The translations under genes and the position numbers were made by a program. Shown piece by piece: positions 16,947-57,900 of a stretch of 64,000 bases of DNA. This DNA comes from Axinella damicornis (Eukaryota; Porifera; Demospongiae; Axinellida; Axinellidae), in contig OZ007511.1 of NCBI GenBank assembly GCA_963931865.1, forward strand, positions 9,538,603 to 9,602,602. The letters run 5' to 3'. The notes beneath the pieces were generated by a model that was given only the letters and a program-made list of their open reading frames with translations, had not been told where the DNA came from and searched no databases. Each line of letters starts with the position of its first letter. The stretch's first letter is position 1.

Positions 16947-18264
16947 ATGGCAACAGGTCTCATGGTCATCCTGCTCCTACTTCTGTTTGCTGTCCGCGTT
17001 TGTAGCACATCTCAGCAAGCATCAGAGTCCGCGCTATGTCAGGACGTGTGTGGATCACTTGAAAGGAGCCTTTGTGTTGCTCTTTTGCACAATCCAGACA
17101 ACATAGAACAAGTTTCCAGGTACTTTTCCAGCCCTCACATTCTGCTGAATGTGACCTTCCTGGTGGATGTTGCTTCACAGAATATCCGCGTCAAACGAAA
17201 CCATGGTATTATGAGCGGAGGGAAACGATCATACAGCTTCTTGGTCACCGCATTCCCGGAACTTCTAAATGCAAATTACGCGCATCTTTGCCAACTACAA
17301 CCAAAACTACCAATCATAATTCAATACGTTGGGTGCCAACTCGTCACTAATTATTGTGAAAGAATTGATGAACTGCTTGAAGGTGGGTGTGTTTTCGATC
17401 AACACAGTATTGAACTTTCACTACATGTGGGACACCTATCATCACCGACATCCTATGAAAATGTGGAAACAGCTCTGGAGAAGTTTATACTTCCAAAGGT
17501 AAGAAGCACATTTAGTTATGTTGTGGTGACGGCCATATTCTGCCATAAGTGTATTCATTTGCTGTGTATTACTCACACACACTCATCATCAGCTATCTAC
17601 AGTTGCAAGCACTCCTGAGAGCGATCCAAAGCAGTGGCAATACAGTATTGTGGCTGAACCACAGGCACATCAAAACAACTTCATATTGCAAGCAGTGGTG
17701 TTTCTTGAAACTTTCTTTCTTGTCTTGCTTGTTGTACCGTCAGCCTGCTTTCTCTTCAGAGTAAGTGACACTTTGACAAGAGAAGGCAGCTTATTCAGAT
17801 CAGCAAACTATGTTCTTGGAGCTTGGAATATTGCCTTTACTGCAGGAGACCTGTACATGTGCCAAGGCATTTCAAACGTCACTGCTTTCAAGTTATTGAT
17901 GTATGGTTTGGGGCTTTTGATCACTTGCACGATATCACAATGCTTCTTGCAGGGGAGAGGCATACGGAAGATTGCAAATATTTTGTCTGTTTGGAATTTC
18001 CTCGTATTTGTACAAATCTTTATGTTTTCGTTCGTGGCATTTCTTCCACAGATGATTGTAACACCTATCCTACCAAGTGTTATACTGTTTGTCAGGTATC
18101 TTCTTGTCATTATAAGCATTTTAATACATTATAAGTTCGTCCAATCATATTCATATGATCCCTACTGTACAATGTGTCTCCTCAATACAGCAGAGACTGC
18201 TTCATTTCTTTTTCTGCTTTATATTCTAATAGTACTAGCGTCATTACTTGAGTTTGTATTCTGA
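16947..18264 (+). CDS. Two-exon Cys-rich multi-pass membrane protein (copy A, intact)
   Basis: Exon 1 is 16947-17498 (184 codons); intron 17499-17592 has GTAAGA/CAG ends. Exon 2 is 17593-18264 (223 codons plus stop), joined in phase 0, giving 407 aa. Residues 1-20 form a signal peptide (hydrophobic LMVILLLLLFAV). Residues 30-183 are an ectodomain with about seven Cys and one NVT sequon. Exon 2 carries about six hydrophobic segments at roughly 213-239, 255-274, 284-303, 310-334, 340-363 and 385-406. The last one reaches the C-terminus, so almost no cytosolic tail remains. The architecture recalls small receptors with an N-terminal Cys domain, but no Frizzled or GPCR signature motif is visible and I assign no function. 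The duplicate at 47759-48340 is broken, so this is the only complete copy here. Confidence 0.7.
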
Positions 18265-18632
18265 TCTCTATGTAAAATATTAATCTGTTGAAACTGCATT
18301 GTTGTGTGATGTGAATCATTACAATACCCGGAAACATTAAATCTGATCTGCACATCATAATAATTATGCCAACGTTTATCAAACGATTGTGCAAGCAATA
18401 TGCATGCCCTAATTGAATTATAGCATGTACCATTTAATTCGCAATTGGATGCAGCTGATTGAGTTAAGGAATCCTGTACATAGTCCCGTGCCCAGACCAC
18501 ACCTTCTCGCGAGAGGGTCTGGTCTGGGAACGAGACTAAGACATACGTATATGATGCATGATTGCCAGCAAGCCTCGATCAATCGCTTCATGAGATCTAT
18601 CAGAGCATATCATGTATAAACAATCAGCACAG
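18265..18632. other. Intergenic with a short hairpin element
   Basis: Convergent gap between the plus-strand membrane gene and the GT61 gene. At 18482-18537 an inverted repeat (AGTCCCGTGCCCAGACC / GGTCTGGGAACGAGACT) resembles the fold-back family. The same hairpin is in copy B at 48406-48461, so it predates the duplication. Confidence 0.6.
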
Positions 18633-20024
18633 TTACGGCATTGAATCAGAAATATTCGTTAACCTCTCTATTACTTCCTTCAGATTAGCCGTAACCCTAT
18701 CTTTACCTCCAGGGATTGTGATGCCATGGTGCCGCCTTCCTGCCAGGTTGGCTAATATCTCGAGAGTAGGTGTATCCAGCTTGAATTCAGGGATAAGTTC
18801 AAAGATAAACGCTTCATCTCTTAGCCACCATAAATGGATCAAACCCGCTCCATGGACCCCCAATAAAATATCAGCCTCATGTCCATAGCGTATCTGCGAA
18901 CAAATGGGCAAGTTCTCCATGTGTACAACAGTCAGTTGCAAGGAAGGAAAAGATTTGTTCAACAACTGTATAAGTTCATCCTCGTTAGTCAGCACTCTCT
19001 GAAATCTGAATTGACTGTCTCCACGATAACGAACATATGGCTTCCTAGATACAACAATTAGTTGCTTTGCCGATGATTTCCTTTCAAAGTCCTTTAGGGA
19101 ACAGGCTTTCAAAACTCTCGATCGAAATGACATGAAGCTGGTTCCAGGTAGATCAGTACCATCACACTTCAAACAGTCATATCTTAGACTGCCTTCTATC
19201 CTGCATCGGAACAAGACACAAGCATAAGCCCACGGAACTAATACTACCTTCCGAAAGCAAGTGATACTGTTGGAGAAGTTCTTCAGAGTAAGCATCTCTG
19301 GAAAAAGTGCCCTCTCAAAATCCTCAAACTTGTAGCCATTTGAATCTGAGATTCTAATGATGACAGAGTCTTCATCAACTGCACTGTTATCAATGAGGCT
19401 CTTGTGGACGTTGTAGTACGCCAAGAACCGGAAATATATGTGGTGGGGTTGACTAACCATGAAGAAATAGGCGGTCTTATTGACCCACTCTTCACATGCA
19501 GAGGGTGGCTTTTGTTCCGAGTTGATAACTTCACGTACAAAGTTTTGCATATAGTCAACATGCTCAGTTGCCTTGAACAGGTTCGTCATCATAGGTGCTG
19601 GACACTGTGTTTCATTGCTTTCCAATAGCCACACTGACATGGTTCCACAAATGTCACAAGTGTTACAGTTAGACATTGCATTTTTCAGTCGCTTTGGATG
19701 AATTGCTAAGTTTTGAATAGTGCAGGTTGCCATGACGCTAGATCTTGGCGTCCGAAAACAGCTGATTGAATGGTTAGGCCACATAACAGAGTCACACATA
19801 GGAACAGGGCTCTGAAATGGATGTTCGATAAACGTGTCACAGAACGTCTTTGACTTCCATGTGGCAGGAGTAGGCGGGGGAAATAGAGTCACAGGAACTA
19901 GATCCTGCTCTCTGCCATTCCTGTGCATGGAGGAACCTAAGTGCATATGCCAGAGGTAAAAGATCCATACACAGAGCACCACAAGTCCCAGACAAGCAGC
20001 CAACGTCCTGATTCTGGGAACCAT
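18633..20024 (-). CDS. GT61-family (EOGT/POMGNT2-like) glycosyltransferase, copy A
   Basis: 463 aa in one exon. Residues 9-27 are a membrane anchor (CLGLVVLCVWIFYLWHM) after a short basic N-terminus, as in type II Golgi/ER enzymes; a Cys-containing lumenal stem follows. The C-terminal half has hallmarks of the DUF563/GT61 fold: VSRKPYVRYRG, and near 390-401 VHGAGLIHLWWL, the most conserved family motif, followed by FELIPEF. Known members transfer GlcNAc or xylose to protein O-glycans or N-glycan cores; the acceptor here cannot be told from sequence. NVS/NKT-type sequons are present. About a dozen residues differ from copy B (48567-49958), and both are intact. The start is chosen because it gives the anchor directly and is conserved in both copies. 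Confidence 0.85.
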   Translation of the reverse strand: MVPRIRTLAACLGLVVLCVWIFYLWHMHLGSSMHRNGREQDLVPVTLFPPPTPATWKSKTFCDTFIEHPFQSPVPMCDSVMWPNHSISCFRTPRSSVMATCTIQNLAIHPKRLKNAMSNCNTCDICGTMSVWLLESNETQCPAPMMTNLFKATEHVDYMQNFVREVINSEQKPPSACEEWVNKTAYFFMVSQPHHIYFRFLAYYNVHKSLIDNSAVDEDSVIIRISDSNGYKFEDFERALFPEMLTLKNFSNSITCFRKVVLVPWAYACVLFRCRIEGSLRYDCLKCDGTDLPGTSFMSFRSRVLKACSLKDFERKSSAKQLIVVSRKPYVRYRGDSQFRFQRVLTNEDELIQLLNKSFPSLQLTVVHMENLPICSQIRYGHEADILLGVHGAGLIHLWWLRDEAFIFELIPEFKLDTPTLEILANLAGRRHHGITIPGGKDRVTANLKEVIERLTNISDSMP

Positions 20025-20436
20025 GTTCTGTCCACGCGTTCAAACTATAGCTAATTGGAGGTGGGGCACAAAGTCACGACATCTGCGCTCTATCATATCA
20101 ACTTGGCAACTCGCGGCCCACACACTCACCAGCTAAGTGGTAGGCCCTAGTCACCAACCGACCTGCTCCAGGCGTTAGCAGATCTCAACTTCACTTGGCG
20201 ACTTGCAGTGCAATACTCATGATTCAGCCTGAGTACAGTTGATTGCTAACATGCTGGTGATTCCGCATCACCCATGCTGGAACCCGATTCTCAAATTTGG
20301 CTGTAGCTATTACGGTAATCGGAAAGTTCCGTATCGCTGGTTGTAGAGCGCGCGCGCGCGGTATGCACATGTCAACAGTTCATAATTTGATTACTACAGT
20401 GTTTACACAGCCTATGTACATGAGAGAGCGGATTCA

Positions 20437-20838
20437 TAGGCCTGAGGATATTATTCTCCAAAAATAGCCCATTATCCTATTCTTGTACAAAATACGAGTA
20501 TTATTCTTTCTCAAGCAACAGTTATTCTCAACAAAACGTGTATTATTCTCAATTCTTCAACTTCCGTGGTCTCGATATATCGGCAGGATCAGCTGCCCGA
20601 AGGCGACTCAGAAACGTAGGGGGCGCAGCGTCTGGCTCTTGGTCAACAGGCACAACACTAGCCGCACTCGTTTCACTACTGTCCGCCATTTTGATCTCAC
20701 CACATGGCCACGTGTTAGACTTCCAGAAGAGAAATTAGATTATTCCTCTAAAACTTCCGGATTATTCCCAAATTATTCTCAATTCTTCCGTCAGCCTATT
20801 ATGCTCAAATTATTCCCAGCATAAAATCCTCAGGCCTA
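20437..20838. mobile_element. MITE present only in copy A, ends TAGGCCTGAGGAT
   Basis: Perfect 13-bp terminal inverted repeats TAGGCCTGAGGAT / ATCCTCAGGCCTA, with repeated TTATTCTC and TTATTCCC words inside. Copy B has no such sequence between the corresponding flanks (near 50355), which makes this an insertion after the duplication. If TA is the target duplication the ends start GGCCTGAGG, but the flanks are not clean enough to prove it. Confidence 0.65.
20549..20689 (-). pseudogene. Short open frame inside the MITE (46 codons)
   Basis: Starts AAAATGGCGG, a good initiation context, and reads MADSSETSAASVVPVDQEPD, ending SRLRAADPADISRPRKLKN then TGA. The composition (acidic start, then SRLR...RKRK-like end) resembles the first exon of transposase-type proteins. 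It may be a relic of the autonomous parent, or a captured host first exon. Inference only. Confidence 0.3.
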
Positions 20839-20970
20839 GAGCGGAACCTCATTGTGCGCTCCTGACATGTAGCTATAGCTAGCTAGGCCACACTGATTTG
20901 CTATGTCATGGTGTAGTGGCAACAGGAGCGCATAGCTTATGAAGTTGCACACTCTTATTGAACTCTTGAT

Positions 20971-21027
20971 CTAGCCTTGTTCCCATGCAGGCGCTCGGTA
21001 ATTACCGAGCGCCTGGGAACGAGGCTA
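20971..21027. mobile_element. 57-bp fold-back element with 8-bp target duplication
   Basis: CTAGCCTTGTTCCCATGCAG ... GCCTGGGAACGAGGCTA folds almost completely on itself. Flanks are CTCTTGAT on both sides (20963-20970 and 21028-21035). Copy B lacks the element. Same family as 38038-38110, 38950-39343, 42651-42697 and 44770-44854. Confidence 0.8.
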
Positions 21028-21244
21028 CTCTTGATCATAATTAGCTATACCATCATCATTCGCAATGCCAGGTAGCTAGCTAGTGTTTTGGGAACAGCAA
21101 TGCTGCATCCTTCACCTTATGATCTTCTGGTGCTATATAGATCTTCATGGGCAATTACCCGTGCACATTCATCAGTGAAGCCTTTTAATCTGAATTTAGA
21201 ACTCAACAACAACATGAAAAAAAATTAGCTACTGGCCAGCAACA

Positions 21245-22807
21245 TTAAAGTTTTGTATGTACAATGTCTGAATGTTCATTCATGAACTTTGCCATGATCT
21301 TTGCAGGATGGCGAGGTGGAGCAAAATGGGCGATGAAATCCCCTGGTCTCCAAAAACACTTACCGTCACTAAAACCACAGAGAGCCTGGAGGGTACGATC
21401 ACCTTCAAACATATGGATTGTATGCCTCCAAATGCTACGAACTGGACGCACAAGATCCCACATGGCAGACTGTTCAAATCCCCATATGAAACGCCAATCT
21501 CTAAACCATGATTGCTGATCCATTGAGGCTAGTAAGAGTGCATGTGAATTTTCAGTGTTCCGCATCAGTATAGCTCCAGTGTTGATAAATCCATCATAGG
21601 ATGGTATAACTATTAACATGTCTTTGTCCTTGGCTTCGGGAAGAGCAAAGAAAGATTCCAATTTGATAGAAAAGTTTGTAAATATGGCATCCGAGTCTAC
21701 AAAGAATAGTAACTTGCAGTCATCCAAGTGGTTTAAAATACTATCGAACTTCCCCCAGTTTGCACCACTATAACCACTGTTCTTCCTTTCAAAATATGGT
21801 CGGCCTTCTTCTATGAAGTGGTAACCATGCGTGGCTGCATACCTCTTCTTGTTTCGTCTCAGTGCTGATGCCACTCGCAATTGCTTCATATCATGAGACT
21901 GGCTGCCAGTTAGAATACAGGCGGGTTTACGTGGGCATATGTTGTTCTAATTTGAAAGGTAGAATTTCTGCAATGTTTCATATCCATGTACTTTCTGGCT
22001 GACAATGTACTGGCAACTTTCATTGGACTGTGGTACCAGTAAGTTCAATGTGTGGTCAGCCCAGTTCACTGTCACTTTACCACATGAAGCTTTGGCCATT
22101 GTGGATGAATATGTACAATTACTGATTATCACATCTTGTAACGTTAATTGGCTCCATTTCTTCAGAATATTGTAAGCATTTATATTTCCCTTTCGAATTC
22201 CAACTACTCTACTGCTACAATAATTGGAGTTATGCCTGAAACCCAGTGAGTGAACGGCTGCAAATCCATTCTGCTCAACTGCTGCAAAAATATCAGAGAG
22301 GTGGTTGTTGAGTTGTAGTTCTGGATCGAGCCACAAGGCAGCACCAAATTCATCTACAACTTTCTGGATGGCCACAGGTTTCCAGATCCCCTTGATCGAC
22401 CTGAAGTACAGTGGGTAGAACGTAAAAGGAAATTCTCTGACCTGGAGTTGAATTCCCAATGGTTGGGATCTGTTGAGAAGGAACATGACCTGACAAGCCC
22501 TAAGTCCAAGATCCCACACGACTAACTGGTGACTGGATTTTGGTTCAAGCATTGCAAAGGATTCCACAAGACGCAGCAGATTCGGAAACTCTTTGCTGCT
22601 TGCACCTGTTGTAAATGTGACGTTCATCCGTCTGCGTAGTCTTGACGATCCGTTTGTCATCTTGGTGTTTGTGGGGATCCAACTGTAGGGGCTAGTATCA
22701 TGTATGCCGATGATTCCATGAGACAACAAGAGGAACAGAGACGGCAAGGCTAGTATTAACAGAATGAGGTACCCACGGCTACGTATACAGTCTTGTCCTA
22801 TCATCAT
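21245..22807 (-). pseudogene. Two-domain glycosyltransferase (DUF1647-like + GT34), copy A, interrupted by TAG
   Basis: Homologous along its length to the intact gene at 50676-52226. The first part (22807-21947) has the anchor and the N-terminal domain and ends after FYLSN at a TAG (plus-strand CTA at 21947-21949). Copy B has CAG (Gln) at this position. The frame then continues without other breaks to TAA at 21245, keeping the GT34 motifs: ATHGYHF, the acidic metal site VDSDAIF and GDFIAHFAPP. One substitution therefore separates it from an intact gene. It could be a recent pseudogene, a polymorphic null allele, a sequencing error, or a read-through or reinitiation case. A downstream ATG at 21889 could start a soluble GT34 domain, but it would lack a signal or anchor. 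Confidence 0.8.
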
Positions 22808-24700: not shown

Positions 24701-24719
24701 TATATAGCTAGAAATGTGA

Positions 24720-25680: not shown

Positions 25681-26440
25681 CACCACTAGCTAAACAGTTT
25701 CATCAAGAAGTGGTTCTCGAATACTAACGTACGAAACTGTGGGTGGTGTGACTCTTACAGGTGTTGTCTCATCCCCATCACTGCCGGACTTTTGTTGCCT
25801 TTTTCTCTGTATCCACTTGAAAAAAGTCAAAAAGATTTCAGTTTTGTTCAGTTTCTGGTAGGCATGAAACAGAAGTGTGAAACCGAAAATGATGGCAGCT
25901 AGCTGTGCCTAGCATGGCATAGGAGGCCCAGGATTGCTTCTCAGTGAATGTTTCTGGCTCAGAATTGTACTGATATCTGTTGAATAGAGTCCAAACAGCA
26001 AAGCCAACCAGGTTGTAGAGGTAGAAGCTATCCAGCGATAAGTTTTTGTAGACACCACCAGATTTGAACAAACCAGCTACCACAGTGAAAGATGTGACCA
26101 GAATAATCACGAGGAGGTTGATACCAGGATCACTGGAGACGTTCAGTGCAATGGAAATGAGAAGCGTGCTAATGTCGGAGTTTCTGCAAGCATGATTCTG
26201 ACAGGAGCAGCAGCATCAGCGGAAGAATGAAAGTCACCGTGAACAGAACTGAGGTCAAAAACAAGGGGATGTGTTTCCCACTGAGAAACCTCAAGTTTCC
26301 ATCAAATATCCAAACTGCAAAAGAATCACCGCGTTCTTCGTGAATGACTGCACGTTGAATTTTAGCATACGAGAGGAGGAAGTAAGGACCGGGACTGAAT
26401 TGTTGCCAGTGAGGCAAGCTATGGTGGTGGAATAGTGGCT

Positions 26441-26988
26441 AGAAACAATGTGGTGTACAAGGTCCCTGCAGTGACTGCCAAGCCACATACATGGGAGAAC
26501 TCTTCTCCAATGCCTCAAGGAGCACAAGAGGGCCCTGACCACAGCCAGCCCCATGAATTCTGCACTTGCAGAACATGCCATGGACACTGGGCATGAAATC
26601 AAATGGTCAGATGCCACCATCATTGATGCCAACCCCCTCCTACATCAGCGTTGCAACCTGGAGAGCTGGCATATCCGCGAACAACCCCTCCCTCTCAACA
26701 GGGAGAGAGGCACACTGCCACCAGTCTATAACCAGCTGAACGTCCTCACCACGCCATCAACGGGCTGAGTCATCCCCCATCCCGTTAAAATTCTTTTAAC
26801 TTTTAACGTTTTGTAACACCTGCATCCTTTTTCCCGCCCTTTTGCCGCCTTTACCCCACCCCTTTCCGTTACTGTATTTAGACTTGTGTTGTCCGCATTG
26901 TGGGTATTTTCACTGATGAGGGCCACTGTATAGTGGCCGAAACGTCTGTTTCAAACTTCTTGAAATATTTATTCGGTTGGTGCGTGAG
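26441..26988 (+). mobile_element. 3' fragment of a Penelope-like retroelement
   Basis: The plus strand encodes, with one or two frameshifts near 26465-26495, a C-terminal GIY-YIG-type endonuclease region: CSDCQATYMGE, LKEHKRAL, SALAEHAMDTGHEIKW, then an E-x-x-HIRE and N-R-E-R-G-T-L segment, with TGA at 26766-26768. About 145 bp downstream is a hammerhead-ribozyme-like motif in the same sense. Both features are established for Penelope-like elements. It replaces about 18 bp of the receptor pseudogene compared with copies at 55860 and 61800. Confidence 0.75.
26913..26943 (+). ncRNA. Hammerhead-ribozyme-like core in the Penelope-like element
   Basis: CTGATGAG (26913-26920), a perfect 7-bp stem GGCCACT/AGTGGCC closed by GTAT (26921-26938), then GAAAC (26939-26943). 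Compared with the consensus (CUGAUGA, stem II starting G:C, GAAA), one G at 26920 is extra or bulged. A possible upstream strand for stem III and the cleavage site is TTGTC at 26889-26893, but I could not fold a good stem I by eye. It may be a decayed copy. Confidence 0.5.
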
Positions 26989-27050
26989 CTAATACACTGG
27001 GCAAATGTAAACTGGGAAAATAAACTGGAAAAATGTTTTGGCGTAGATAT

Positions 27051-28439: not shown

Positions 28440-29054
28440 ATGGCCAAACAATGTGTTAGCTTTAGAAGCGAAATCATGCAACAACATGTTAAGGTAGTAA
28501 ACATGGGTACCGCGATCTCCGAAACCAAGTTGATGGATAAATGGGCAGCATCAAAGCGTACACAAGTTTCAGCAATACTTTGCATCAAACTGCTCCCTCT
28601 GCTTAAAAATGCCCTAAAACTCAATTTTAAGGCCCTCTACGAAACTGAAAATTTGGACCCTCTCCAAGGCCCCACCCACACTCTGACCCCATCATCAAAT
28701 ACACACACAAAACAGGCCCCAAACTACGGATGGATTTACCACCTGCTCTCCTCACTTGCAGGCTACAGCCCAAAACTCACTGCCACCCTCAAAAACAGAG
28801 GTTTGGCTACCCTAGGCTTTCAAAAAAAATTCCACGCACACCAACTAAAACCGACTGAAGCCAAGGGCACTCTTCAAAAGGTCAACCTACCCCCTGCAAA
28901 ACTAGGGATGCTTTTCCACGTTCACCTCTCGGTTACAGAGTTTTGGCCACACATCTACTCCCTCTCACCAGCCCACTCCAGCTACCAAACCAGCCAAATT
29001 CGGCCTAACACGAAAATGGGCGGGGCCTGTAATGCCGAAAGGTCAACTCTCTAG
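28440..29054 (+). CDS. Hypothetical 204-aa open frame, duplicated at 63273
   Basis: A Lys/Thr/Pro-rich protein starting MAKQCVSFRSEIMQQHVKVV, with no signal peptide, membrane segment or motif I recognise. The duplicate at 63273-63887 has the same amino-acid sequence, but the whole surrounding 2 kb is almost identical, so this does not prove selection. A second frame follows after the stop (29061-29294) and contains a poly(A) run read as poly-Lys. This is possibly a remnant of a mobile element or a real orphan gene. Confidence 0.3.
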   Translation: MAKQCVSFRSEIMQQHVKVVNMGTAISETKLMDKWAASKRTQVSAILCIKLLPLLKNALKLNFKALYETENLDPLQGPTHTLTPSSNTHTKQAPNYGWIYHLLSSLAGYSPKLTATLKNRGLATLGFQKKFHAHQLKPTEAKGTLQKVNLPPAKLGMLFHVHLSVTEFWPHIYSLSPAHSSYQTSQIRPNTKMGGACNAERSTL

Positions 29055-29207
29055 AGTACCTTGGCCAGGGAGCTGTCGGATGCTGTTCACTTTCCAGGCT
29101 GTTCTTCGGCCACTTCGGCAGACCCACAAACATTCCTGCTCACTCCACCTAGCTATTCACACTCAGATAGCCCATCGCTACATTCAATAAGCCAGAATAG
29201 CTCTTTA

Positions 29208-29211
<4 letters not shown>

Positions 29212-29238
<27 letters not shown>
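29212..29238. repeat. Poly(A) run
   Basis: About 27 A in a row, following TCTTTACTT. It could be a retroposed tail or a simple homopolymer. No target duplication was identified. Confidence 0.7.
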
Positions 29239-29720
29239 TAGTGTTCAAACAAATCTTCAAGGTACCGCACGGCCACATCAGAGTACCGATTTGAAACTCG
29301 AAAGGGCCGCTAGCCGCATCAAAGAGAGAAGCCCCCCTTGTTTATTCCGGTTGCCGCCATGGGAAAACGTAAACAGATGAATAACTCAAAATAACCGTAT
29401 GCGAGTGACGTCATCTCATTAATTATTCATGAGCAAAATTGTGCGATTTCGCCGATGCCGTGCTTCCTACCTTAACATGAGCATGCACATGATGATATCA
29501 TCGTCATGATGATATGACTATGCATCAATGACATCATCATGTGCTCTTGCAACTGGATCTGGGTCAATACGTGCTTTAGCTATAATAATATATCAATAAC
29601 CAGAATAATGAATACAGGTGCATGCAAGAAAGCTGGGGAAATCTAGATCCATAAACACCAAACGCTAGCTACCAAACTAAAACTGTATAAATTATAGCAG
29701 GCATCAGTAGCTACAAAATT

Positions 29721-32700
29721 CTAATCAGTTTCATCTAGAAGTAGTTCCCGAAGGCTCACGTGTGTATACGAAACTGGTGAGGGTGCAACTCTTAAAGGTA
29801 CTGTCTCATCTCCATCGCCGTCGTGCTTCCTTTGCTGCTTTCGTTGTATCCGTATGACACAATCTGAAATGACTTCAGATTTCCTCAGTTTCTGGTAGGC
29901 ATGAAACAGAAGTGTGAGACTGAAAATGATGGCAGCTGTGCCTAGCATGGCATAGGAGGCCCAGGATTGCTTCTCAGTGAATGTTTCTGGCTCAGAATTG
30001 TACTGATATCTGTTGAATAGAGTCCAAACTGCAAAGCCAACCAGGTTGTAGAGGTAGAAGCTATCCAGAATGTTTAGTGGTAAGTTTTTGTAGACACCAC
30101 CAGATTTGAACAAACCAGCTAGCACAGTGAGAGATGTGACCAGAATAATTACGAGGAGGTTGATACCAGGATCACCGGAGACGTTCAGTGCAATGGAAAC
30201 GAGAAGCATGCTGCGTATAACCAGCATGAAACCAGTCCAAAAGCGAAAACTGACCTTATAAGGACCTTGATACGCATCCAGCAATGGCTTCAGCCAGGTC
30301 ATGATCCTCACAACACAATAATGTCGGAGTTTCTGCAAGCACGATTCTGACAGGAGCAGCAGTGTCAGCGGAAGAATGAACGCCACCGTGAACAGAACTG
30401 AGGTCACAAACAGGGGGATGTGTTTCCCACTGAGAAACCTCAAGTTTCCATCGAATATCCAAACTGCAAAAGAATCACCGCGTTCCTCGTGAATGAAGGT
30501 GAAGGACAATGCAGCAATGACTGCGCGTTGAATTTTAGCATACGAGAGGAGGAAGAGGGTTGCAAGGACCGGGACTGAATTGTTGCCAGTGAGGCGAGCT
30601 ATGGTGGTGGAATAGTGGCTAGAAACTATGATGCCCGTCACCAGAACCCAAATGTAAACTGGGAAAATAAACTGGAGAAATGTTTTTGTGTAGATATCAA
30701 GTTTACTTGAGAAGCAAACTTCCAGGCCCAAGTCAAGATTTACCCATGCTATGAATATGGACATAATTCTGCTACTATTTGCTGTGAGTACAAAAGTTTC
30801 TCGAGCAGCTTGAATTATGTTGGAGTAGAATATTAGCCCATTGATCGTTCCAGTTGCTACTGTTAAATTCAGTACAGTTAAAAACACCACCAGCAGAATT
30901 CCAGCCAATGCGAAAGCAGGAATGAGTCCAAGAAACTTGTCGGTACAAGGGGCACACCTTGACGAGCCTAGTGTAATGCTGAACCCTGCCTTGCAACTTC
31001 CGCAAAGAACTCCAGAGTGATTGAAGTCACATTGATTGTCAGGGGTGCTTGCGTTGAGATGCACTCCTGCAGCTTTGCAGTATTCAGATGGACAGTGCTC
31101 GTAGTACAGAATCGAATCGTTGGTGAAGGATATCCATACCGTTCCAGAACGATAAAACGATTGGTTGTTTATATTGCATTGGACAGAAAGCTGACTTAGC
31201 AGAGGTGAGCATATGCACCTATTCTCCTCCCAGTTGAATCCTACTGGGCAAAACATTGTAGCTACTCTGAGGAGTTTTGAATAAGACAACGGAAGTACAC
31301 TGCCTTCAGCGGTTAACCGGATCGATATATCGGAAATATTTTCAGGTGCTTCAACTTGAAATGTCAAATCTCCACATGTTGTACCCAAGCTTTGTGGCTC
31401 TGCTGTCTTGAGGGTTAAAGTTGTGTCATTCGCAACAGTAGATCTCTCAAAAGCCTGCCTAATAACTGCGGGAGTTGTCCCCCAATAATACCCTATCCCT
31501 ACTGCTCGAAGCATAAACGTTTGACCGGGGTACACGGAAATGTCTTTTGCAGAGATCGTACAGTTTTTGGAATCATGTGTGCAGTAGCAAAGACCAACTG
31601 CAGCAGATGACAGCTCAGAATCATCGGGTGGGGTTGACTCCAGTCTAAATGTTGTTACAAAGATTTTCTCTGCTGTCACACGCTGGGATTCATGAACCAG
31701 CTTCTGGGCATTCTGAGAGCAACTCAATAAGTCCCCACCATATATGGCATGACCAGCAATTCCTGCACTGTTGCCCTTCATAACAACTTTTGCTTTAGAT
31801 GAAAGAATGTCTCCTTTTGGAAGCAGTTGGTAAGAACATGGAGTCCCGTAATTTCTGACCTGTCCTTGATTGATTGAAATGCCACCACCAAAGCTTGTGG
31901 CATTGTTGCTGCTTATTCTGAGAACAGAGTTTGGATGAAGGTACATGAAACTGTACGGATCAAGTGACATTGCTCCCCCAATTATGCCTGAATTATTTTG
32001 TAATGTATTATTGCCAATCATATTCATGTTGCTTGAAAGGGCAGATATTCCCACAGCCATGTTTCCTTCTATAATGGAGTCATGAAAGTATACAAACGAG
32101 GCATCAGCAACAAGTATAGTAGAGATTTTCGGATAATCGATTAACTGCTGGCTATTATCCATGTGTTCTACATGGCAGTTTGATATTGTTAGGCTAGAGA
32201 GAGATACATTCAGAAGTGGTTCCTTCGATTCCTTTGACTCTTGGATCAACAGAGCAAGAGAGCTCCTGAAGTCACTGTCAGTGTAGTAATAGATGTAACT
32301 CCCATCAATAAGCGTATTCAAAATTTGCACTTGAAAGCAGCAAGGTACTGTCCAGTATCCACTATCTGAAAGGAACACTTTCATTCCGCCTCCCAAATTG
32401 CTCTTCATCGTAACATTGCTCAGAGATATGCTTGTGTGGGTAACTTTGTGGTGACGATTGCAAGTCATTAAGGAACCATTCATGATCACATTTTCTGAAT
32501 CTATATCAATGGAAATACCCGGAGCTTGGCCCCAATATGCCATGTATTGGGGATCAATGAACGGCCTGTTGCCATAATTCAGGGAAGTGTTGACAATTTG
32601 TAGAGAAGAATTGGAAACAAAATTCATTATTCTGCAGTAAATATTTGCTCCAGCATCGCCCACATTGTCATGAATGTTAGAATTCTCAATATGAAAATGA

Positions 32701-33554
32701 ATATCAAATGAGGTTTGTGAGAAGGTTATTCCTAACCCTGCAGCATACCTTGGACCCCATAGGCGATCGTTGAGATTGATTCCAAATGATATTTCTGTCT
32801 TGTGTATTGTAAAAAAATGGACAGGATTTGATTTAGTTTCTTGGCTGCAGTCCATGTCAACAAATAGTATCCAAATGTTCCCTCCTTCACACCCCACTGT
32901 CATATTCTTGCAGTTGATGGAACCAGATCTTTGTTTTGAAATAAGATCGTAGTTGGTGTAAGCTATCACAGAGTTCTGGATGTGTGATCGTCCCAGAGGA
33001 TTGACCCAGAAAAGACCGTTACCTTTGCTGTTGGTGATGTTGACGTTGTCAATCGCTGAATGAAACGAGAGGATGATCTGGAGTGCAGCGGATAAGGAGT
33101 TTGTTAAAAACTTCTGACTGTGATTAAAAGTGGTTCTCGTGGCTAGCTCTGTTTTATTGATTGGAAACCCACAAGATATCAGATGAAGGTTTTGAATTCG
33201 GAAGAATGATACATTGATAAAAGCAAATCCTGCTGCTGGTTGACAGTGGACAGTTGCAGTATACCTGGACTGGCTGCAGTTAACCACACAGAGTGAAAGG
33301 TTGTGTATATCTCTCACAACTATTGGATTCTCCAGTTGGTATTCCTCTGGTTGAAACAGCAGGGTTGTGTCAGATTGGAAGCACTGATCTGGTTCAGAGC
33401 TGCAATTGGAGAAAGATATGCAGTTTCGTGAATTGCACGTTTCAGTCACGCTTTTGGTATCTGGCAGAACATTGTGAATAATCTCTCCCTCTGCTGTGAG
33501 TGACTGGATAGCAGATAAGTTTATGATGACAACCAGCAACAACAATCGACTCAT
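29721..33554 (-). CDS. Beta-helix ectodomain multi-pass receptor-like protein (intact, 1277 aa)
   Basis: Single exon. Residues 1-21 are a signal peptide (LLLLVVIINLSAIQS). Residues 25-760 are a sequon-rich ectodomain with repeated short strands (INVSFF, LHLISCG, VNITNSKGNGLFWVN, SALSSNMNMIGNN, GGAMSLDP, GGGISINQG) typical of right-handed parallel beta-helix (PbH1) coils. Residues 769-872 are Cys-rich, including CGSCKAGFSITLGSSRCAPC, an EGF/ephrin-receptor-like motif. About nine hydrophobic helices follow at roughly 876-898, 930-948, 959-979, 993-1018, 1046-1068, 1105-1123, 1130-1149, 1166-1180 and 1197-1220. The 57-residue cytosolic tail is basic then acidic and ends RELLLDETD. Topology suggests a surface receptor or transporter; ligand and function are unknown. 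It is about 90 percent identical by eye to 54956-58786. A conserved TATA-like box lies 67 bp upstream. Confidence 0.85.
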   Translation of the reverse strand: MSRLLLLVVIINLSAIQSLTAEGEIIHNVLPDTKSVTETCNSRNCISFSNCSSEPDQCFQSDTTLLFQPEEYQLENPIVVRDIHNLSLCVVNCSQSRYTATVHCQPAAGFAFINVSFFRIQNLHLISCGFPINKTELATRTTFNHSQKFLTNSLSAALQIILSFHSAIDNVNITNSKGNGLFWVNPLGRSHIQNSVIAYTNYDLISKQRSGSINCKNMTVGCEGGNIWILFVDMDCSQETKSNPVHFFTIHKTEISFGINLNDRLWGPRYAAGLGITFSQTSFDIHFHIENSNIHDNVGDAGANIYCRIMNFVSNSSLQIVNTSLNYGNRPFIDPQYMAYWGQAPGISIDIDSENVIMNGSLMTCNRHHKVTHTSISLSNVTMKSNLGGGMKVFLSDSGYWTVPCCFQVQILNTLIDGSYIYYYTDSDFRSSLALLIQESKESKEPLLNVSLSSLTISNCHVEHMDNSQQLIDYPKISTILVADASFVYFHDSIIEGNMAVGISALSSNMNMIGNNTLQNNSGIIGGAMSLDPYSFMYLHPNSVLRISSNNATSFGGGISINQGQVRNYGTPCSYQLLPKGDILSSKAKVVMKGNSAGIAGHAIYGGDLLSCSQNAQKLVHESQRVTAEKIFVTTFRLESTPPDDSELSSAAVGLCYCTHDSKNCTISAKDISVYPGQTFMLRAVGIGYYWGTTPAVIRQAFERSTVANDTTLTLKTAEPQSLGTTCGDLTFQVEAPENISDISIRLTAEGSVLPLSYSKLLRVATMFCPVGFNWEENRCICSPLLSQLSVQCNINNQSFYRSGTVWISFTNDSILYYEHCPSEYCKAAGVHLNASTPDNQCDFNHSGVLCGSCKAGFSITLGSSRCAPCTDKFLGLIPAFALAGILLVVFLTVLNLTVATGTINGLIFYSNIIQAARETFVLTANSSRIMSIFIAWVNLDLGLEVCFSSKLDIYTKTFLQFIFPVYIWVLVTGIIVSSHYSTTIARLTGNNSVPVLATLFLLSYAKIQRAVIAALSFTFIHEERGDSFAVWIFDGNLRFLSGKHIPLFVTSVLFTVAFILPLTLLLLSESCLQKLRHYCVVRIMTWLKPLLDAYQGPYKVSFRFWTGFMLVIRSMLLVSIALNVSGDPGINLLVIILVTSLTVLAGLFKSGGVYKNLPLNILDSFYLYNLVGFAVWTLFNRYQYNSEPETFTEKQSWASYAMLGTAAIIFSLTLLFHAYQKLRKSEVISDCVIRIQRKQQRKHDGDGDETVPLRVAPSPVSYTHVSLRELLLDETD

Positions 33555-47475: not shown

Positions 47476-47758
47476 TTAAATACTCATTAATTTTTGCGCA
47501 TGCGTGCCATTGGCCTATATAAATTATGTATTGTTTACCGTCAGAAAATATAGTTCCCTTCAAAATATCTAAATTCTGGATCTTTGCGAGGCATGGACAG
47601 ATTTTAACGAAACAAGCACTGACGGTTAGTGATGCCGAGAGAGAGAGAAATTAAGTCCAACAGAAAAAATTCTGGGACCAGCTGGATGTGCTCTTTCCAT
47701 TGGTTAGGTCATCGATCGAAGGTCTGTAGTGAAGTTTAAATTTCACTCTAACATGCCT

Positions 47759-48340
47759 ACTGTTTGCTGTCCGAGTTTGTAGCGCATCTCAGCAAGCATC
47801 AGAGTCCATGCTGTGTCAGGACGTGTGTGGATTACTTGAAAGGAGCCTTTGTGTTGCTCTTTTGCACAATCCGGACAACAAAGAACACATTTTCAGGTAC
47901 GTTTCCTGCCCTCACATTCTGCTGAATGTGACCTTCCTGGTGGATGTTGCTCCACAGAATGTCCGCGTCAAACGAAACCATGATATGAGCGGAGGGAAAC
48001 AATCATACAGCTTCTTGGTCACCGCATTCCCGGCACTTCTAAATGCAAATATTACGCACATTTTCGCCAATTACAACTGAAGCTGCCAATCATAATTCAA
48101 TATGTTGGGTGCCAACTTGTCAGTTTTCCTAATTATTGTGAAAGACCTGATGAACTGCTTGGAGGTGGGTGTGTGTTCTATCAACACAGTTACTGTATTG
48201 AACTTTCACTATATGTGGGACACCTATCATCACCGACATCCTATGAACATGTGCAAACAGCTAAGCTATTTACAGTTGCAAGCACTCCTGAGAGCAATCC
48301 AAAGCAGTGGCAATACATGTACAGTATTGTTATTATAGCA
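47759..48340 (+). pseudogene. Cys-rich membrane-protein gene, copy B, decayed
   Basis: Corresponds to 16985-17640 and 18412 onward of copy A. The signal peptide start is missing (the duplication border falls inside it). The ectodomain frame breaks near 48077 (IFANYN then stop). The exon-1 donor and intron are deleted, and nearly all of exon 2 is gone: the sequence jumps from CAATACATGTACAGTATTG to the downstream flank TATAGCATGTACCATTTAAT. No membrane segment remains. Confidence 0.85.
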
Positions 48341-48566
48341 TGTACCATTTAATTCGCAATTGGATGCAGCTGGTTGAGTTAAAGAATCCTGGCCAGGCAT
48401 ACATAGTCCTGTGCCCAGACCACACCTTCTGGCGAGAGGGTCTGGTCTGGGAACGAGACTAAGACATACGTATATGACGCATGATTTGCCAGCAACCCTC
48501 GATCAATCGCTGCATGAGATCTATCAGAGCATATCATGTATTAACAGTGTAAGACAATCAGCACAG

Positions 48567-49958
48567 TTATGGCATTGAATCAGAAATATTCGTTAACCTC
48601 TCCATTACTTCCCTCAGATTAGCCGTAACCCTATCTTTACCTCCAGGGATTGTGATGCCATGGTGCCGCCTTCCTGCCAGGTTGGCTAATATCTCGAGAG
48701 TAGGTGTATCCAGCTTGAATTCAGGGATAAGTTCAAAGATAAACGCTTCATCTCTTAGCCACCATAAATGGATCAAACCCGCTCCATGAACCCCCAATAA
48801 AATATCAGCCTCCTGTCCATAGCGTATTTGCGAACAAATGGGCAAGTTTTCCATGTGTACAACAGTCAGTTGCAAGGAAGGAAAAGATTTGTTCAACGAC
48901 TGTATAAGTTCATCCTCATTAGTCAGCACTCTCTGAAATCTAAATTGACTGTCTCCACGATAACGAACATATGGCTTCCTAGATACAACAATTAGTTGCT
49001 TTGCCGACGATTTCCTTTCAAAGTCCTTTAGGGAACAGGCTTTCAAAACTCTCGATCGAAATGACATGAAGCTGGTTCCAGGTAGATCAGTACCATCACA
49101 CTTCAAACAGTCATATCTTAGACCGTCTTCTATCCTGCATCGGAACAAGACACAAGCATAAGCCCACGGAACTAATACTACCTTCCGAAAGCAAGTGATA
49201 CTGTTGGAGAAGTTCTTCAGAGTAAGCATCTCTGGAAAAAGTGCCCTCTCAAAATCCTCAAACTTGTAGCCATTTGAATCTGAGATTCTAATGATGACAG
49301 AGTCTTCATCAACTGCACTGTTATCAATGAGGCTCTTGTGGACGTTGTAGTACGCCAAGAACCGGAAATATATGTGGTGGGGTTGACTAACCATGAAGAA
49401 ATAGGCGGTCTTATTGACCCACTCTTCACATGCAGAGGGTGGCTTTTGTTCAGAGTTGATAACTTCACGTACAAAGTTTTGCATATAGTCAACAGGCTCA
49501 GTTGCCTTGAACAGGTTCGTCATCATGGGTACTGGACACTGTGTTTCATTGCTTTCCAATAGCCACACTGACATGGTTCCAAGAATGTTACAAGTGTTAC
49601 AATTAGACATTGCACTTTTCAGTCGCTTTGGATGAATTGCTAAGTTTTGAATAGTGCAGGTTGCCATGACGCTAGATCTTGGTGTCCGAAAACAGCTGAT
49701 TGAATGGTTAGGCCACATAACAGAGTCACACATAGGAACAGGGCTCTGAAATGGATGTTCGATAAACGTGTCACAAAACGTCTTTGACTTCCATGTGGCG
49801 GGAGTGGGCGGGGGAAATAGAGTCACAGGAACTAGATCCTGCTCTCTGCCATTCCTGTGCATGGAGGAACCTAAGTGCATATGCCAGAGGTAAAAGATCC
49901 ATACACAGAGCACCACAAGCCCCAGGCAAGCAGCCAACGTCCTGATTCTGGGAACCAT
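48567..49958 (-). CDS. GT61-family glycosyltransferase, copy B
   Basis: 463 aa, the same length as copy A, with the same anchor, the VSRKPYVRYRG segment and the VHGAGLIHLWWL motif. Differences from copy A are conservative and scattered (for example G[HQ]EAD, E[HP]VDY, EVI/EVM). Both copies keep an open frame, whereas the three other genes of the unit have each lost one copy, so retention of both may reflect dosage, divergence or simply chance. It sits about 720 bp downstream of the fused glycosyltransferase gene on the same strand. Confidence 0.85.
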   Translation of the reverse strand: MVPRIRTLAACLGLVVLCVWIFYLWHMHLGSSMHRNGREQDLVPVTLFPPPTPATWKSKTFCDTFIEHPFQSPVPMCDSVMWPNHSISCFRTPRSSVMATCTIQNLAIHPKRLKSAMSNCNTCNILGTMSVWLLESNETQCPVPMMTNLFKATEPVDYMQNFVREVINSEQKPPSACEEWVNKTAYFFMVSQPHHIYFRFLAYYNVHKSLIDNSAVDEDSVIIRISDSNGYKFEDFERALFPEMLTLKNFSNSITCFRKVVLVPWAYACVLFRCRIEDGLRYDCLKCDGTDLPGTSFMSFRSRVLKACSLKDFERKSSAKQLIVVSRKPYVRYRGDSQFRFQRVLTNEDELIQSLNKSFPSLQLTVVHMENLPICSQIRYGQEADILLGVHGAGLIHLWWLRDEAFIFELIPEFKLDTPTLEILANLAGRRHHGITIPGGKDRVTANLREVMERLTNISDSMP

Positions 49959-50675: not shown

Positions 50676-52226
50676 TTAAAGTTTTGTATGTACAATGTCT
50701 GAATGTTCATTCATGAACTTTGCCATGATCTTTTCAGGACGGCGAGGTGGAGCAAAATGGGCGATGAAATCTCCTGGTCTCCAAAAACACTTACCGTCAC
50801 TAAAACCACAGAGAGCCTGGAGGGTACGATCACCTTCAAACATATGGATTGAATGCCTCCAAATGCTGTGAACTGGACGCACAAGATCCCACATGGCAGA
50901 CTGTTCAAATCCCCATATGAAACGCCAATCTCTATTCCATGATTGCTGATCCATTGAAGCTAGTAAGAGCGCATGGGAATTTTCAGTGTTCCGCATAAGT
51001 ATAGCTCCAGTGTTGATAAATCCATCATAGGATGGTATAACTATTAACATGTCTTTATCCTTGGCTTCAGGAACAGCAAAGAAAGATTCCAATTTGATAG
51101 AAAAGTTTGTAAAGATGGCATCAGTGTCTACAAAGAATAGTAACCTGCAGTCATCCAAGTGGTTTAAAATACTATCGAACTTCCCCCAGTTTGCACCACT
51201 ATAACCACTGTTCTTCCTTTCAAAATATGGCCGGCCTTCTTCTATGAAGTGGTAACCATGCGTGGATGCATACCTCTTCTTGTTTCGTCTCAGTGCTGAT
51301 GCCACTCGCAATTGCTTCATATCATGAGACTGGCTGCCAGTTAGAATACAGGCGGGTTTACGTGGGCATATATTGTTCTGATTTGAAAGGTAGAATTTCT
51401 GCAATGTTTCATATCCATGCACTTTCTGGCTGACAGTGTACTGGCAACTTTCATTGGACGGTGGTACCAGTAAGTTCAACGTGTGGTCTGCCCAGTACAC
51501 TGTCACTTTACCACACGAAGCTTTGACCATTGTGGATGAATATGTACAATTACTGATTATCACGTCTTGTAACGTTAATTGGCTCCATTTCTTCAGAATA
51601 TTGTAAGCATTTCTATTTCCCTTTCGAAATCCAACTACTCTACTGCTACAATGATTGGAGTTATGCCTGAAACCCAGTGAGTGAACGGCTGCAAATCCAT
51701 TCTGCTCAACTGCTGCAAAAATATCAGAGAGGTGGTTGTTGAGTTGTAGTTCTGGATCGAGCCACAAGGCAGCGCCAAATTCATCCACAACTTTCTGGAT
51801 GGCCACAGGTTTCCAGATCCCTTTGATCGACCTGAAGTACAGTGGGTAGAACGTAAAAGGAAATTCTCTGACCTGGAGTTGAATTCCCAATGATTGGGAT
51901 CTGTTGAGAAGGAACATGACCTGACAAGCCCTAAGTCCAAGATCCCACACGACTAACTGGTGACTGGATTTTGGTTCAAGCATTGCAAAGGATTCCACAA
52001 GACGCAGCAAATTCGGAAACTCTTTGCTGCTTGTACCTGTTGTAAATGTGACGTTCATCTGTCCGCGTAGTCTTGACGATCCGTTTGTCATCTTGGTTCT
52101 TGTGGCGATCCAACTGTAGGGGCGAGGATCATGTATGCCGATGATTCCATGAGACAACAAGAGGAACAGAGACGGCACGGCTAGTATTAACGGAATGAGG
52201 TACCCACGGCTACGTCCTATCATCAT
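50676..52226 (-). CDS. Fused glycosyltransferase: DUF1647-like domain plus GT34 domain (intact, copy B)
   Basis: 516 aa from the MMIG start, chosen because copies A and B agree only from there; longer N-terminal extensions differ in frame. Residues 6-28 are a type II anchor (YLIPLILAVPSLFLLLSHG). Residues about 60-270 resemble the DUF1647 type of GT-A-like domain: KEFPNLLRLVESFAMLEP, VVWDLGL, WKPVAIQKVV, ALWLDPELQL. Residues about 300-505 are a GT34 (GMA12/MNN10-type) domain: KKRYASTHGYHFI, ANWGKFDSIL, the metal-binding VDTDAIFTNF (DxD at 367-369), WGFEQSAMWD, GDFIAHFAPP. GT34 enzymes transfer galactose or xylose from nucleotide sugars in the Golgi. The N-terminal domain may be a second catalytic or a structural domain. 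The order, two GT-like domains in one chain, is uncommon to my knowledge. Confidence 0.8.
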   Translation of the reverse strand: MMIGRSRGYLIPLILAVPSLFLLLSHGIIGIHDPRPYSWIATRTKMTNGSSRLRGQMNVTFTTGTSSKEFPNLLRLVESFAMLEPKSSHQLVVWDLGLRACQVMFLLNRSQSLGIQLQVREFPFTFYPLYFRSIKGIWKPVAIQKVVDEFGAALWLDPELQLNNHLSDIFAAVEQNGFAAVHSLGFRHNSNHCSSRVVGFRKGNRNAYNILKKWSQLTLQDVIISNCTYSSTMVKASCGKVTVYWADHTLNLLVPPSNESCQYTVSQKVHGYETLQKFYLSNQNNICPRKPACILTGSQSHDMKQLRVASALRRNKKRYASTHGYHFIEEGRPYFERKNSGYSGANWGKFDSILNHLDDCRLLFFVDTDAIFTNFSIKLESFFAVPEAKDKDMLIVIPSYDGFINTGAILMRNTENSHALLLASMDQQSWNRDWRFIWGFEQSAMWDLVRPVHSIWRHSIHMFEGDRTLQALCGFSDGKCFWRPGDFIAHFAPPRRPEKIMAKFMNEHSDIVHTKL

Positions 52227-53951: not shown

Positions 53952-54236
53952 GGTCATGTACGTCAACAACAGCTTTTTTGGTTAATTTTCTCTATACCTA
54001 GAAAGCTAGAAACTTGAGTAGCATGGCATAGGAGGCCCAGGATTGCTTCTCAGTGAATGTTTCCGGCTCAGAATTGAAATATCTGTTGAATAGAGTCCAA
54101 ACTGCAAAGCCAACCAGGTTGTAGAGGTAGGGCAGCTTAGAGCAATCCTGGGCCTCCTATGCCATGCTACTCAAGTTTCTAGCTTTCTAGGTATAGAGAA
54201 AATTAACCAAAAAAGCTGTTGTTGACGTACATGACC
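53952..54236. repeat. Perfect 96-bp inverted duplication (copy B only)
   Basis: Arms 53952-54047 and 54141-54236 are exact reverse complements, with a 93-bp spacer holding receptor-fragment sequence. Copy A has only the left arm (24663 onward), continuing directly into GCTTGCATTTGTTGC. The right arm is therefore a later inverted insertion, and exactness implies recency or gene conversion. Confidence 0.95.
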
Positions 54237-54420
54237 GCCGCAGCTTGCATTTTGTTGCGTAGAATATTAGCCCATTGATCGTTCCAGTTGCTACGGTTAA
54301 ATTCAATACAGTTAACAGCACCACCATTAGAACTCCAGCCATACGAAAGCATGAAGAAACATGTCTGTCAGTGTGCAAGGGGCACACCTTGACAAACCTA
54401 GTGTAGTGCTGAATCCTACC
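54010..54420 (-). pseudogene. Internally deleted receptor fragment (copy B), disrupted by the inverted duplication
   Basis: Counterpart of 24720-25040: last-helix region (54030-54130) and first-helix region (54240-54400), here separated by the inverted arm. Confidence 0.7.
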
Positions 54421-54955
54421 TCTGCTATACAGTAGGTGAAACGAGCAAAGCTGTATATACTAGTGTCCGGTTACCAAGGGAACACCAGGAGAGAGAGAGA
54501 CTTTCCAATGTGCTACCTACGGGTAGGTAGTAGCTAGCTATACACCCACAGTCCCTTCAGAATTTTCTGTTTAACACCGAAATCAATCCCTTATGTATGC
54601 AATATGCTATTGGTTATAATCAAGTTAATTGCAACTAGCTATAGTAGCCTCATGACCATCCATTTATACAAAAGGAATTAGTGCTGCAGTATTGATGACA
54701 GCACACCCTATGCACTTACATGATATAGAGTTCGGAGACAATTGGTACCAAATATCAACTCGATCCTCATAGCAGAGCTATCAATGTAATATATAGCTAT
54801 AGCTGCAATCAACAAGGTTAAACGCAACCCTTGAGTTTCTACAGCATACACTTAGTGTATTGTCTGCACCAGCTAAAACAAAAACAAACCCTATAATCAC
54901 CACAATTTTGATAAACAGCAAACTTTATCATTACAATGTCATGTGCCACCACTAG
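54421..54955. other. 3' flanking region of the copy B receptor gene
   Basis: Counterpart of 25041-25680, with the recurring GTTACCAAGGGAACACCAGG and CTTTCCAATGTGCTACC words. Confidence 0.6.
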
Positions 54956-57900
54956 CTAAACAGTTTCATCAAGAAGTGGTTCTCGAATACTAACGTACGA
55001 AAATGTGGGTGGTGTGGCTCTTACAGGTGTTGTCTCATCCCCATCACTGCCGGACTTTTGTTGCTTTTTACTTTGTATCCACTTGAAAAAAGTCGAAAAG
55101 ATTTCAGTTCTATTCAGTTTCTGGTAGGCATGAAACAGAAGTGTGAGACTGAAGATGATGGCAGCTGTGCCTAGCATGGCATAGGAGGCCCAGGATTGCT
55201 TCTCAGTGAATGTTTCCGGCTCAGAATTGTACTGATATCTGTTGAATAGAGTCCAAACAGCAAAGCCAACCAGGTTGTAGAGGTAGAAGCTATCCAGAAT
55301 GTTCAGCGGTAAGTTTTTGTAGACGCCGCCAGATTTGAACAAACCAGCTAGCACAGTGAAAGATGTAACCAGAATAATCACGAGGAGGTTGATACCAGAA
55401 TCACCAGAGACGTTCAGTGCAATGGAAACGAGAAGCATGCTGCGTATAACCAGCATGAAACCAGTCCAAAAGCGAAAACTGACCTTATAAGGACCTTGAT
55501 ACGCATCCAGCAATGGCTTCAGCCAGGTCATGATCCTTACAACACGATAATGTCTGAATTTCCGCAAGCACGATTCTGACAGGAGCAGCAGTGTCAGTGG
55601 AAGAATGAACGCCACTGTGAACAGAACTGAGGTCAAAAACAAGGGGATGTGTTTCCCACTGAGAAACCTCAAGTTTCCATCGAATATCCAAACTGCAAAA
55701 GAATCACCGCGTTCCTCGTGAATGAAGGTGAAGGACAATGCAGCAATGACAGCACGTTGAATTTTAGCATACGAGAGGAGGAAGAGGGTTGCAAGGACCG
55801 GGACTGAATTGTTGCCAGTGAGGCGAGCTATGGTGGTGGAATAGTGGCTAGAAACAATAATCCCCATCACCAGAACCCAAATGTAAACTGGGAAAATAAA
55901 CTGGAGAAATGTTTTGGCATAGATATCGAGTTTACTAGAGAAGCAAACTTCCAGGCCCAAGTCAAGATTTACCCATGCTATGAATACGGACATAATTCTG
56001 CTACTATTTGCAGTGAGTACAAAAGTTTCTCGGGCAGCTTGAAGTATGTTGGCGTAGAATATTAGCCCATTGATCGTTCCAGTTGCTACAGTTAAATTGA
56101 GTACAGTTAAAAATGTCACCAGCAGAATTCCAGCCAAAGCAAAAGCAGGAATGAGTCCAAGAAACTTGTCTGTGCAAGGGGCACACCTTGATGAGCCTAG
56201 TGTAATGCTGAACCCTGCCTTGCAACTTCCGCAGAGAACTCCGGAGTGATTGAAGTCACATTGGTTGTCAGGGGTGCTTGCATTGAGATGCACTCCTGCA
56301 GCTTTGCAGTATTCAGATGGACAGTGCTCGTAGTATAGAATGGAATCGTTGGTGAAGGATATCCATACCGTTCCAGAACGATAAAATGATTGGTTGTTTA
56401 TGTTGCATTGGACAGAAAGCTGACTTAGCACAGATGAGCATATGCACCTATTCTCCTCCCAGTTGAATCCTACTGGGCAAAACATTGTATCTACTCTGAG
56501 GAGTTTTGAAAAAGACAACGGAAATACGCTGCCTTCAGCTGTTAGCTGGATTGAGATATCAGAAATGTTTTCGGGGGCCTCAACTTCAAATGTCAAATCT
56601 CCACAAGCTGTTCCCAAGCTTTGTGGTTCTGCTGTCTTGAGGGTTACATTTGCAATGGTAGAACTTTGTCTAATAACTGCAGGAGATATCCCCCCAAAAT
56701 ATCCAATCCCCCCATAATATCCAATCCCCACTGCTCTCAGAATAAAATTCTGACCAGGATACACGGAAATGTCTATTGCAGAGATCCTACAATTTTTGGA
56801 ATCGTGTGTGCAGTAGCAAAGACCAATTGCAACAGATGACAGCTCAGAACTAGTGGACGGGGTTGGTTCCAGTTTAAACGTGGTTAAAAAGATTTCCACT
56901 GCTGTCTTACGCTTGGATTCATGAACGAGTTTCTGGGCGTTCTGAGAACAACCCAATAGTTCCCCACCATATATGGCATGACCAGCAATTCCTGCACTGT
57001 TGCCCTTCATAACAACTTGTGCTTTAGATGAGAGAACGTCTGGAAGCAGCTGGTAAGAACATGGAGTTTCATAATTCCTGATCAGCCCTTGATTGATTGA
57101 AATTCCACCGCCAAAGTTTGAAGAATTGTTGTTGACAATTCTGAGAATGGAGTGTTGATGAAGGTAAATGATACTGTAAGCATCAAGGGACATCGCTCCC
57201 CCATATATGCCCGAATTATTTCGAACTGTATTAATGCCATCCATGTTCATGTTGCTTGACAGGGCAGATATTCCCACAGCCATGTTTCCTTCTATAATAG
57301 TGTTATGAAAATATACAGATGAGGCATCACCGACTAGTATAGTAGAGATTTTCGGATAATCGGCTAACAGCCAGCTGTCATCAGTGTGCTCTACATAACA
57401 GTTTGATATTGTCAGGTTAGAGAGAGATACATTCAGTAGAGGTGCCTTCGATTCCTTTGACTCTTGGATCAACAGAGCAAGAGAGCTCCTGAAGTCACTG
57501 TCAGTGTAGTAATAGATGTAGCTCCCATCAATAAGTGTATTTGAAATTTGCACTTGAAAGCAGCAAGGTACTGTCCAGTATCCACTATCTGAAAGGAACA
57601 CTTTCATTCCGCCTCCCAAATTGCTCTTCATCGTTACATTGCTCAGCGATATGTTTGTGTGGGTAGCTTTGTGGTGGAGATTGCAAGTAACTAAAGAACG
57701 ATTCATGTAATCAATCACATTTTCCGAATCTATGTCAATAAAAATGCCTGGAGCCTGGTCCCAATATGCCATGTATTGGGGGTCGATGAATGGCCTGTTA
57801 CCATAACTCATGGAAGTGTTGACAATTTGTAGAGAAGAATTGGAAACAAAATTCATTATTCTGCAGTAAACATTTGCTCCAGCATCGCCCACGTTGTCAT

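Follow-up and report, generated by a model that had tools for sequence, protein, structure and literature searches.

The locus raises a question that any tandem duplication with broken members raises: when a block of several genes is present twice and different genes are broken in the two copies, has each copy kept what the other lost, with consequences for inheritance, or is this what gene-family turnover ordinarily leaves behind? The window analyzed here is a stretch of 64,000 nucleotides from the sponge Axinella damicornis (C7:9538603-9602602), and it was compared with and searched against a genome of 226.5 Mb in 120 contigs. The first-pass annotation had described a unit of four genes (a Cys-rich membrane protein, a GT61 glycosyltransferase, a fused GT34 glycosyltransferase and a beta-helix receptor) that occurs twice with reciprocal losses, and had proposed that the two loci, together retaining one functional copy of each gene, could matter for crosses.

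The same multi-gene unit is indeed present twice. Numbered on the window, unit A occupies 16980-26450 and unit B 47757-58807. A BLAST self-comparison matches the two beyond chance (E 0) in blocks at 83-95% identity, pairing 16980-26450 with 47757-55858, from where the B receptor extends to 58807; within this, 16980-24855 and 47757-54130 form collinear blocks at 88-95% identity that run on into receptor sequence. Aligned base by base, 16980-24860 and 47757-54140 differ by substitution at 293 of 6268 ungapped columns, or 4.7%. Several genes thus recur in collinear order and with unchanged orientation, as in a tandem segmental duplication. The array also continues past the window: the segment 27002-36302, which carries receptor R1, is repeated at 61814-71103, and the segment 54669-59850, which carries receptor R2, is repeated at 71259-76469.

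Features of the duplicated locus, in window numbering (positions above 64,000 lie past the window).
Feature	Position	Strand	Remarks
Unit A membrane protein, intact	16947..18264	+	exons 16947-17498 and 17593-18264; 407 aa
Unit A GT61, open	18633..20024	-	463 aa; PF04577 59.2 bits, cut-off 27
Unit A fused DUF1647-like/GT34	21245..22807	-	one in-frame stop, 21947-21949
Unit A R2-type receptor, C-terminal fragment	25690..26450	-	from sequence comparison
Dispersed repeat, ~990 bp	28489..29475	.	same place in second receptor module
Receptor R1, intact	29721..33554	-	open frame, 1277 aa; outside the bounds first drawn for copy A
Unit B membrane-gene remnant	47757..48331	+	from sequence comparison with A
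Unit B GT61, open	48567..49958	-	463 aa; PF04577 58 bits, cut-off 27
Unit B fused DUF1647-like/GT34, open	50676..52226	-	516 aa from likely ATG
Unit B receptor R2, intact	54956..58807	-	1283 aa; 99% identical to R2' past the window
Additional truncated receptor fragment	60948..61869	-	from sequence comparison
Start of second receptor module	61814..64000	.	copy of 27002-36302; continues past the window
Broken R1 copy	64557-68316		two frameshifting deletions
Receptor R2', open	71576-75427		open frame

Units A and B lie about 30 kb apart within a single N-free stretch of 69,052 bases, which is bounded by runs of 200 Ns at 15164-15363 and 84416-84615 that we take to be scaffold joins. As read from the assembly, the two units thus appear to be in cis on one chromosome. 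The alternative is that A and B represent alleles of a single locus that were joined end to end during assembly, in which case the reciprocal loss would be an allelic polymorphism. The cis linkage does rest on the assembly, and alleles of a highly polymorphic species could differ by as much as 4.7%. In addition, a short piece between N runs past the window resembles a diverged copy of the sequence to the left of the window: positions -20840 to -12657 match 84654 to 96122 in five blocks that are 5-12% diverged, and the right-hand copy sits in an 11.7-kb piece enclosed by two 200-N runs. This copy may represent an alternative haplotype that was retained in the scaffold and, because of the resemblance, alternative haplotypes may have escaped purging in this part of the assembly. 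However, the flank that recurs is found on the right-hand side of B rather than in the interval separating the two units, A and B share their N-free stretch with a spacer of about 11 kb between them (36302-47757), and the array alternates between blocks of 0.1% and up to 9% divergence and includes a second receptor module, neither of which is expected from a plain merger of haplotypes. Nor is the stretch a spare haplotig of a locus elsewhere in the assembly, since beyond A and B none of the five GT61 rows of the genome search exceeds 40% identity, and the three rows for the membrane gene include no other locus. We regard the allelic reading as improbable, and treat A and B below as linked copies.

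The two units have decayed in different places. The membrane-protein gene is kept in A and lost from B, as first described. In A it is an open two-exon gene with a GT-AG intron, and its protein has a hydrophobic N-terminus followed by five more hydrophobic segments above threshold; at E up to 1, the spliced product matched neither a Pfam family nor any relative in PDB. The remnant in B is broken in several places: the 5' end is gone, a frameshift interrupts the reading frame, the end of exon 1 is deleted together with the intron, and almost all of exon 2 is deleted as well. Searching the whole genome with the exon-1 frame gives three rows, one for A itself and two for separate pieces of the remnant in B. 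Over the 163 exon-1 codons that can be compared, B differs from A by 12 synonymous and 24 non-synonymous changes, which is indistinguishable from neutral (p 0.16). The accumulation of several lesions suggests that this loss is an older one, the neutral-like p value alone giving no date.

For the fused glycosyltransferase the loss is on the other side, and the reported contrast between a stop in A and an open frame in B also holds. The stop is the only one in the 520 codons of the A frame. It falls at codon 287, corresponding to residue 283 of the B protein, in the linker that joins the two domains. The frame in B is read from the likely ATG, upstream of which the mechanical open reading frame begins at a TTG (52376). 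In the B protein the GT34 domain (GMA12/MNN10, PF05637) scores 48 bits against a cut-off of 23, with its best stretch at residues 293-389 of 516, so that this domain, like GT61 (PF04577), stands above the Pfam cut-off. Unlike the usual GT34 it is fused behind a DUF1647-like region, and the match to DUF1647 itself (PF07801, residues 43-140) is below threshold in the B protein, at 18.2 bits against 25.7; seven of 15 aligned family members match DUF1647 at E up to 0.01. The protein search gave 15 proteins, including those of the window, among 7160 candidates, and a comparison with PDB gave no matches. The GT61 and fused GT34 proteins have one N-terminal hydrophobic segment each, and a search for literature combining sponge, GT34 and GT61 found none. 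Besides A and B, the 16 rows of the genome search contain eight long stop-free loci at 54-72% identity, one degenerate locus and weak matches.

The two sides of the stop have evolved differently. Before it, dN/dS between A and B is 0.56 (p 0.16), i.e., without significant constraint; this value is counted from the likely ATG and is the one used, adding the codons upstream of the ATG giving 0.68. After it, 12 synonymous and 10 non-synonymous differences give a dN/dS of 0.205 (p 3e-4). Polarizing the latter with an outgroup assigns 8 synonymous and 3 non-synonymous changes to the A branch and 4 and 3 to the B branch, with 4 non-synonymous changes unplaced, so that only 3 of 11 polarized changes on the A branch are non-synonymous (p 3e-4 under neutrality). 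Because the sequence after the stop is constrained, the stop may be recent, it may be polymorphic or otherwise not fixed, it may be an error, or the part behind it may still be used. Were it an error of sequencing or an allele at low frequency, the A copy would work, and the losses would be confined to the membrane gene and some receptors. A lone stop in an otherwise open frame and the constraint behind it are both consistent with this, but a recently fixed stop would give the same pattern, and the lack of significant constraint before the stop speaks against a simple reading of the A copy as fully functional. We consider an error or rare allele possible, though doubtful. Since the stop sits in the linker, the gene could alternatively have been split rather than killed, the DUF1647-like part being made alone and the GT34 part either by readthrough of the stop or from an ATG some 20 codons beyond it; this we find very unlikely.

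GT61 is intact in both units, as the open frames already indicate, and the two proteins are 98% identical. The dN/dS that had been proposed as a check is 0.20 (p 4e-5 against neutrality), so the gene is constrained. Besides A and B, the remaining three of the five rows in the genome search for GT61 are C3 loci at 40% identity, and none of the five is another match above that value. Gene conversion was also considered as a cause of the low divergence. The lower divergence of GT61 fits purifying selection, its dS (0.055) being close to that of the fused GT34 gene (0.066, counted from the likely ATG), and we set conversion over GT61 aside. Conversion may nevertheless have acted there: a tract of 509 columns inside GT61 beat every one of 2000 shuffles of the whole A/B alignment, and 9 of 2000 shuffles reached the best tract when the GT61 region was taken alone, with a shuffle that ignores constraint.

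The receptors complicate the original picture. The receptor of unit A is truncated and that of unit B is kept, in agreement with the annotation. The A side nonetheless does not lack an intact receptor, as R1 is open, and GT61 is thus not alone in being intact on both sides: there is an intact receptor on each, R1 beside A and R2 in B. By a simple hydropathy scan, both R1 and R2 begin with a hydrophobic N-terminus and have seven hydrophobic segments within their last third, i.e., several potential membrane segments. Beta-helix families are matched by some of the 37 aligned receptor relatives (PF13229 by nine, PF02415 by seven) while R2 itself is without such a match; comparison of the receptor with PDB gave no matches, and in a search of the Amphimedon literature on the right-handed beta-helix the term beta-helix was absent among the matches listed. 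Receptors of this kind are abundant. An E value of 0.001 is passed by 5050 of 8000 scored candidates, and the sponge's own genome contains 843 candidates, the best 36 of 843 having been scored. Small receptor fragments also lie around both units, at 24744-25039, 36359-36736, 47372-47455 and 54019-54129; these scattered pieces may be the remains of further dead copies.

The repeated receptor modules are not uniformly diverged. The R1 module pair has 113 mismatches in 9184 columns, of which only 9 fall in one tract of 5312 columns, the remainder being 2.7% diverged. The R2 pair has 48 mismatches in 5162 columns, with a single one in a tract of 2706 columns and 1.9% divergence outside it. In both pairs, tracts this extreme were reached in 0 of 2000 shuffles, under a null without selection or rate variation. 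Both tracts extend past the coding sequence and lie within more diverged homologous flanks, as in an array undergoing gene conversion. Conversion or recent re-copying would explain them.

Both modules also carry the dispersed repeat listed in the table. Of its 49 match rows, 39 come from other places in the genome, where the copies are near-full-length and 93-98% identical, and both copies in the array share 13-base inverted ends, as read by eye; it resembles a short DNA transposon with recent activity. Because it occupies the same place in both modules, the repeat would predate the copying of the module, unless conversion carried it. Two 204-aa open reading frames (28440-29054 and 63273-63887) were rejected as genes because they overlap this repeat. 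Similarly, some long minus-strand open reading frames are probably not genes because they overlap a tandem array of 62.6 copies of a 36-base unit at 8085-10317.

Two observations concern cox1 elsewhere in the assembly. On the chromosome-size contig C4, an unbroken COX1 frame (L046, C4:14811759-14813060) adjoins a frame that we take to be cytochrome c-like with a bacterial look, and the pair could stem from symbiont DNA that was built into the scaffold, or from a transfer. On contig C120 (L045, L047), which we read as mitochondrial, cox1 is in pieces, TGA occurs inside frames, and the intron frames presumably resemble LAGLIDADG and reverse-transcriptase proteins. Introns of both groups have been reported in cox1 of sponges, and such introns also in Placozoa, Annelida and corals, in an excerpt of PMC4676843; an excerpt of PMC9240083 also names Bryozoa.

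Complementary loss between the units is thus supported, and it extends to a fourth gene type, since R1 is intact beside A and broken in its B-side copy. Counted over four gene types, the losses come to two per side, with A losing GT34 and R2 and B losing the membrane protein and R1, a count that assigns the additional receptor module to B. But if losses strike at random and the sides are equally likely, both sides will be hit with a probability of 0.875 for four losses and 0.75 for three. The proposal that the reciprocal pattern is a balanced outcome keeping one copy of each gene is therefore unsupported: chance would usually produce it, the losses seem to be of different ages, and there are copies of the receptor and the fused GT34 gene elsewhere.

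The suggested relevance to crosses fares no better. Incompatibility between duplicate genes arises where genotypes differ in the copy that they have lost, and duplicates silenced differently between genotypes can be incompatible, as set out for Arabidopsis in an excerpt of PMC8042742. The present locus resembles those cases in its complementary loss of function in two copies, but differs from what the excerpt describes in that both losses lie in one assembled chromosome, in closely linked copies and in a single genotype. As far as the assembly is right, copies in cis at this distance and in one gap-free stretch do not segregate apart; they are expected to be inherited together, so consequences for crosses are unsupported. 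The other open copies of the receptor and the fused GT34 gene in the genome also argue against such an effect, and we give hybrid or cross incompatibility at this locus almost no credence.

Birth-and-death evolution of tandem gene families, accompanied by gene conversion, is an established concept. The locus shares with such families its tandem copies, its fragments, its broken members beside intact ones and its tract-wise homogenization, but differs from them in that the block carries several unrelated genes rather than one family. We consider it highly probable that this is a local tandem array on one chromosome undergoing birth-and-death turnover. Support comes from distinct classes of dS, namely 0.26 between R1 and R2, 0.055-0.066 between the A and B copies of GT61 and GT34, and 0.014 between R2 and R2', as well as from the receptor shards around both units and the dispersed repeat in both modules. 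In this scenario, with unequal crossing-over and gene conversion as the presumed mechanism, a block of membrane protein, GT61, fused GT34 and receptor would have been duplicated in cis, a receptor module would later have been copied again and homogenized in parts, and single genes would then have decayed on either side. This order of events is not unique, and other orders are possible. The presence of one working set would be a by-product and not a selected outcome.

The locus thus has the appearance of routine turnover in a gene family. Finding complementary breaks in a single assembly argues only weakly for reciprocal silencing, as chance usually produces them and linked copies do not segregate. 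If the array is correctly interpreted, a compact mixed block of receptors and glycosyltransferases is turning over within one chromosome of this sponge, with at least three event ages recorded in about 70 kb. The fused DUF1647-like/GT34 protein and the membrane protein may also interest researchers working on animal glycans and the cell surface.
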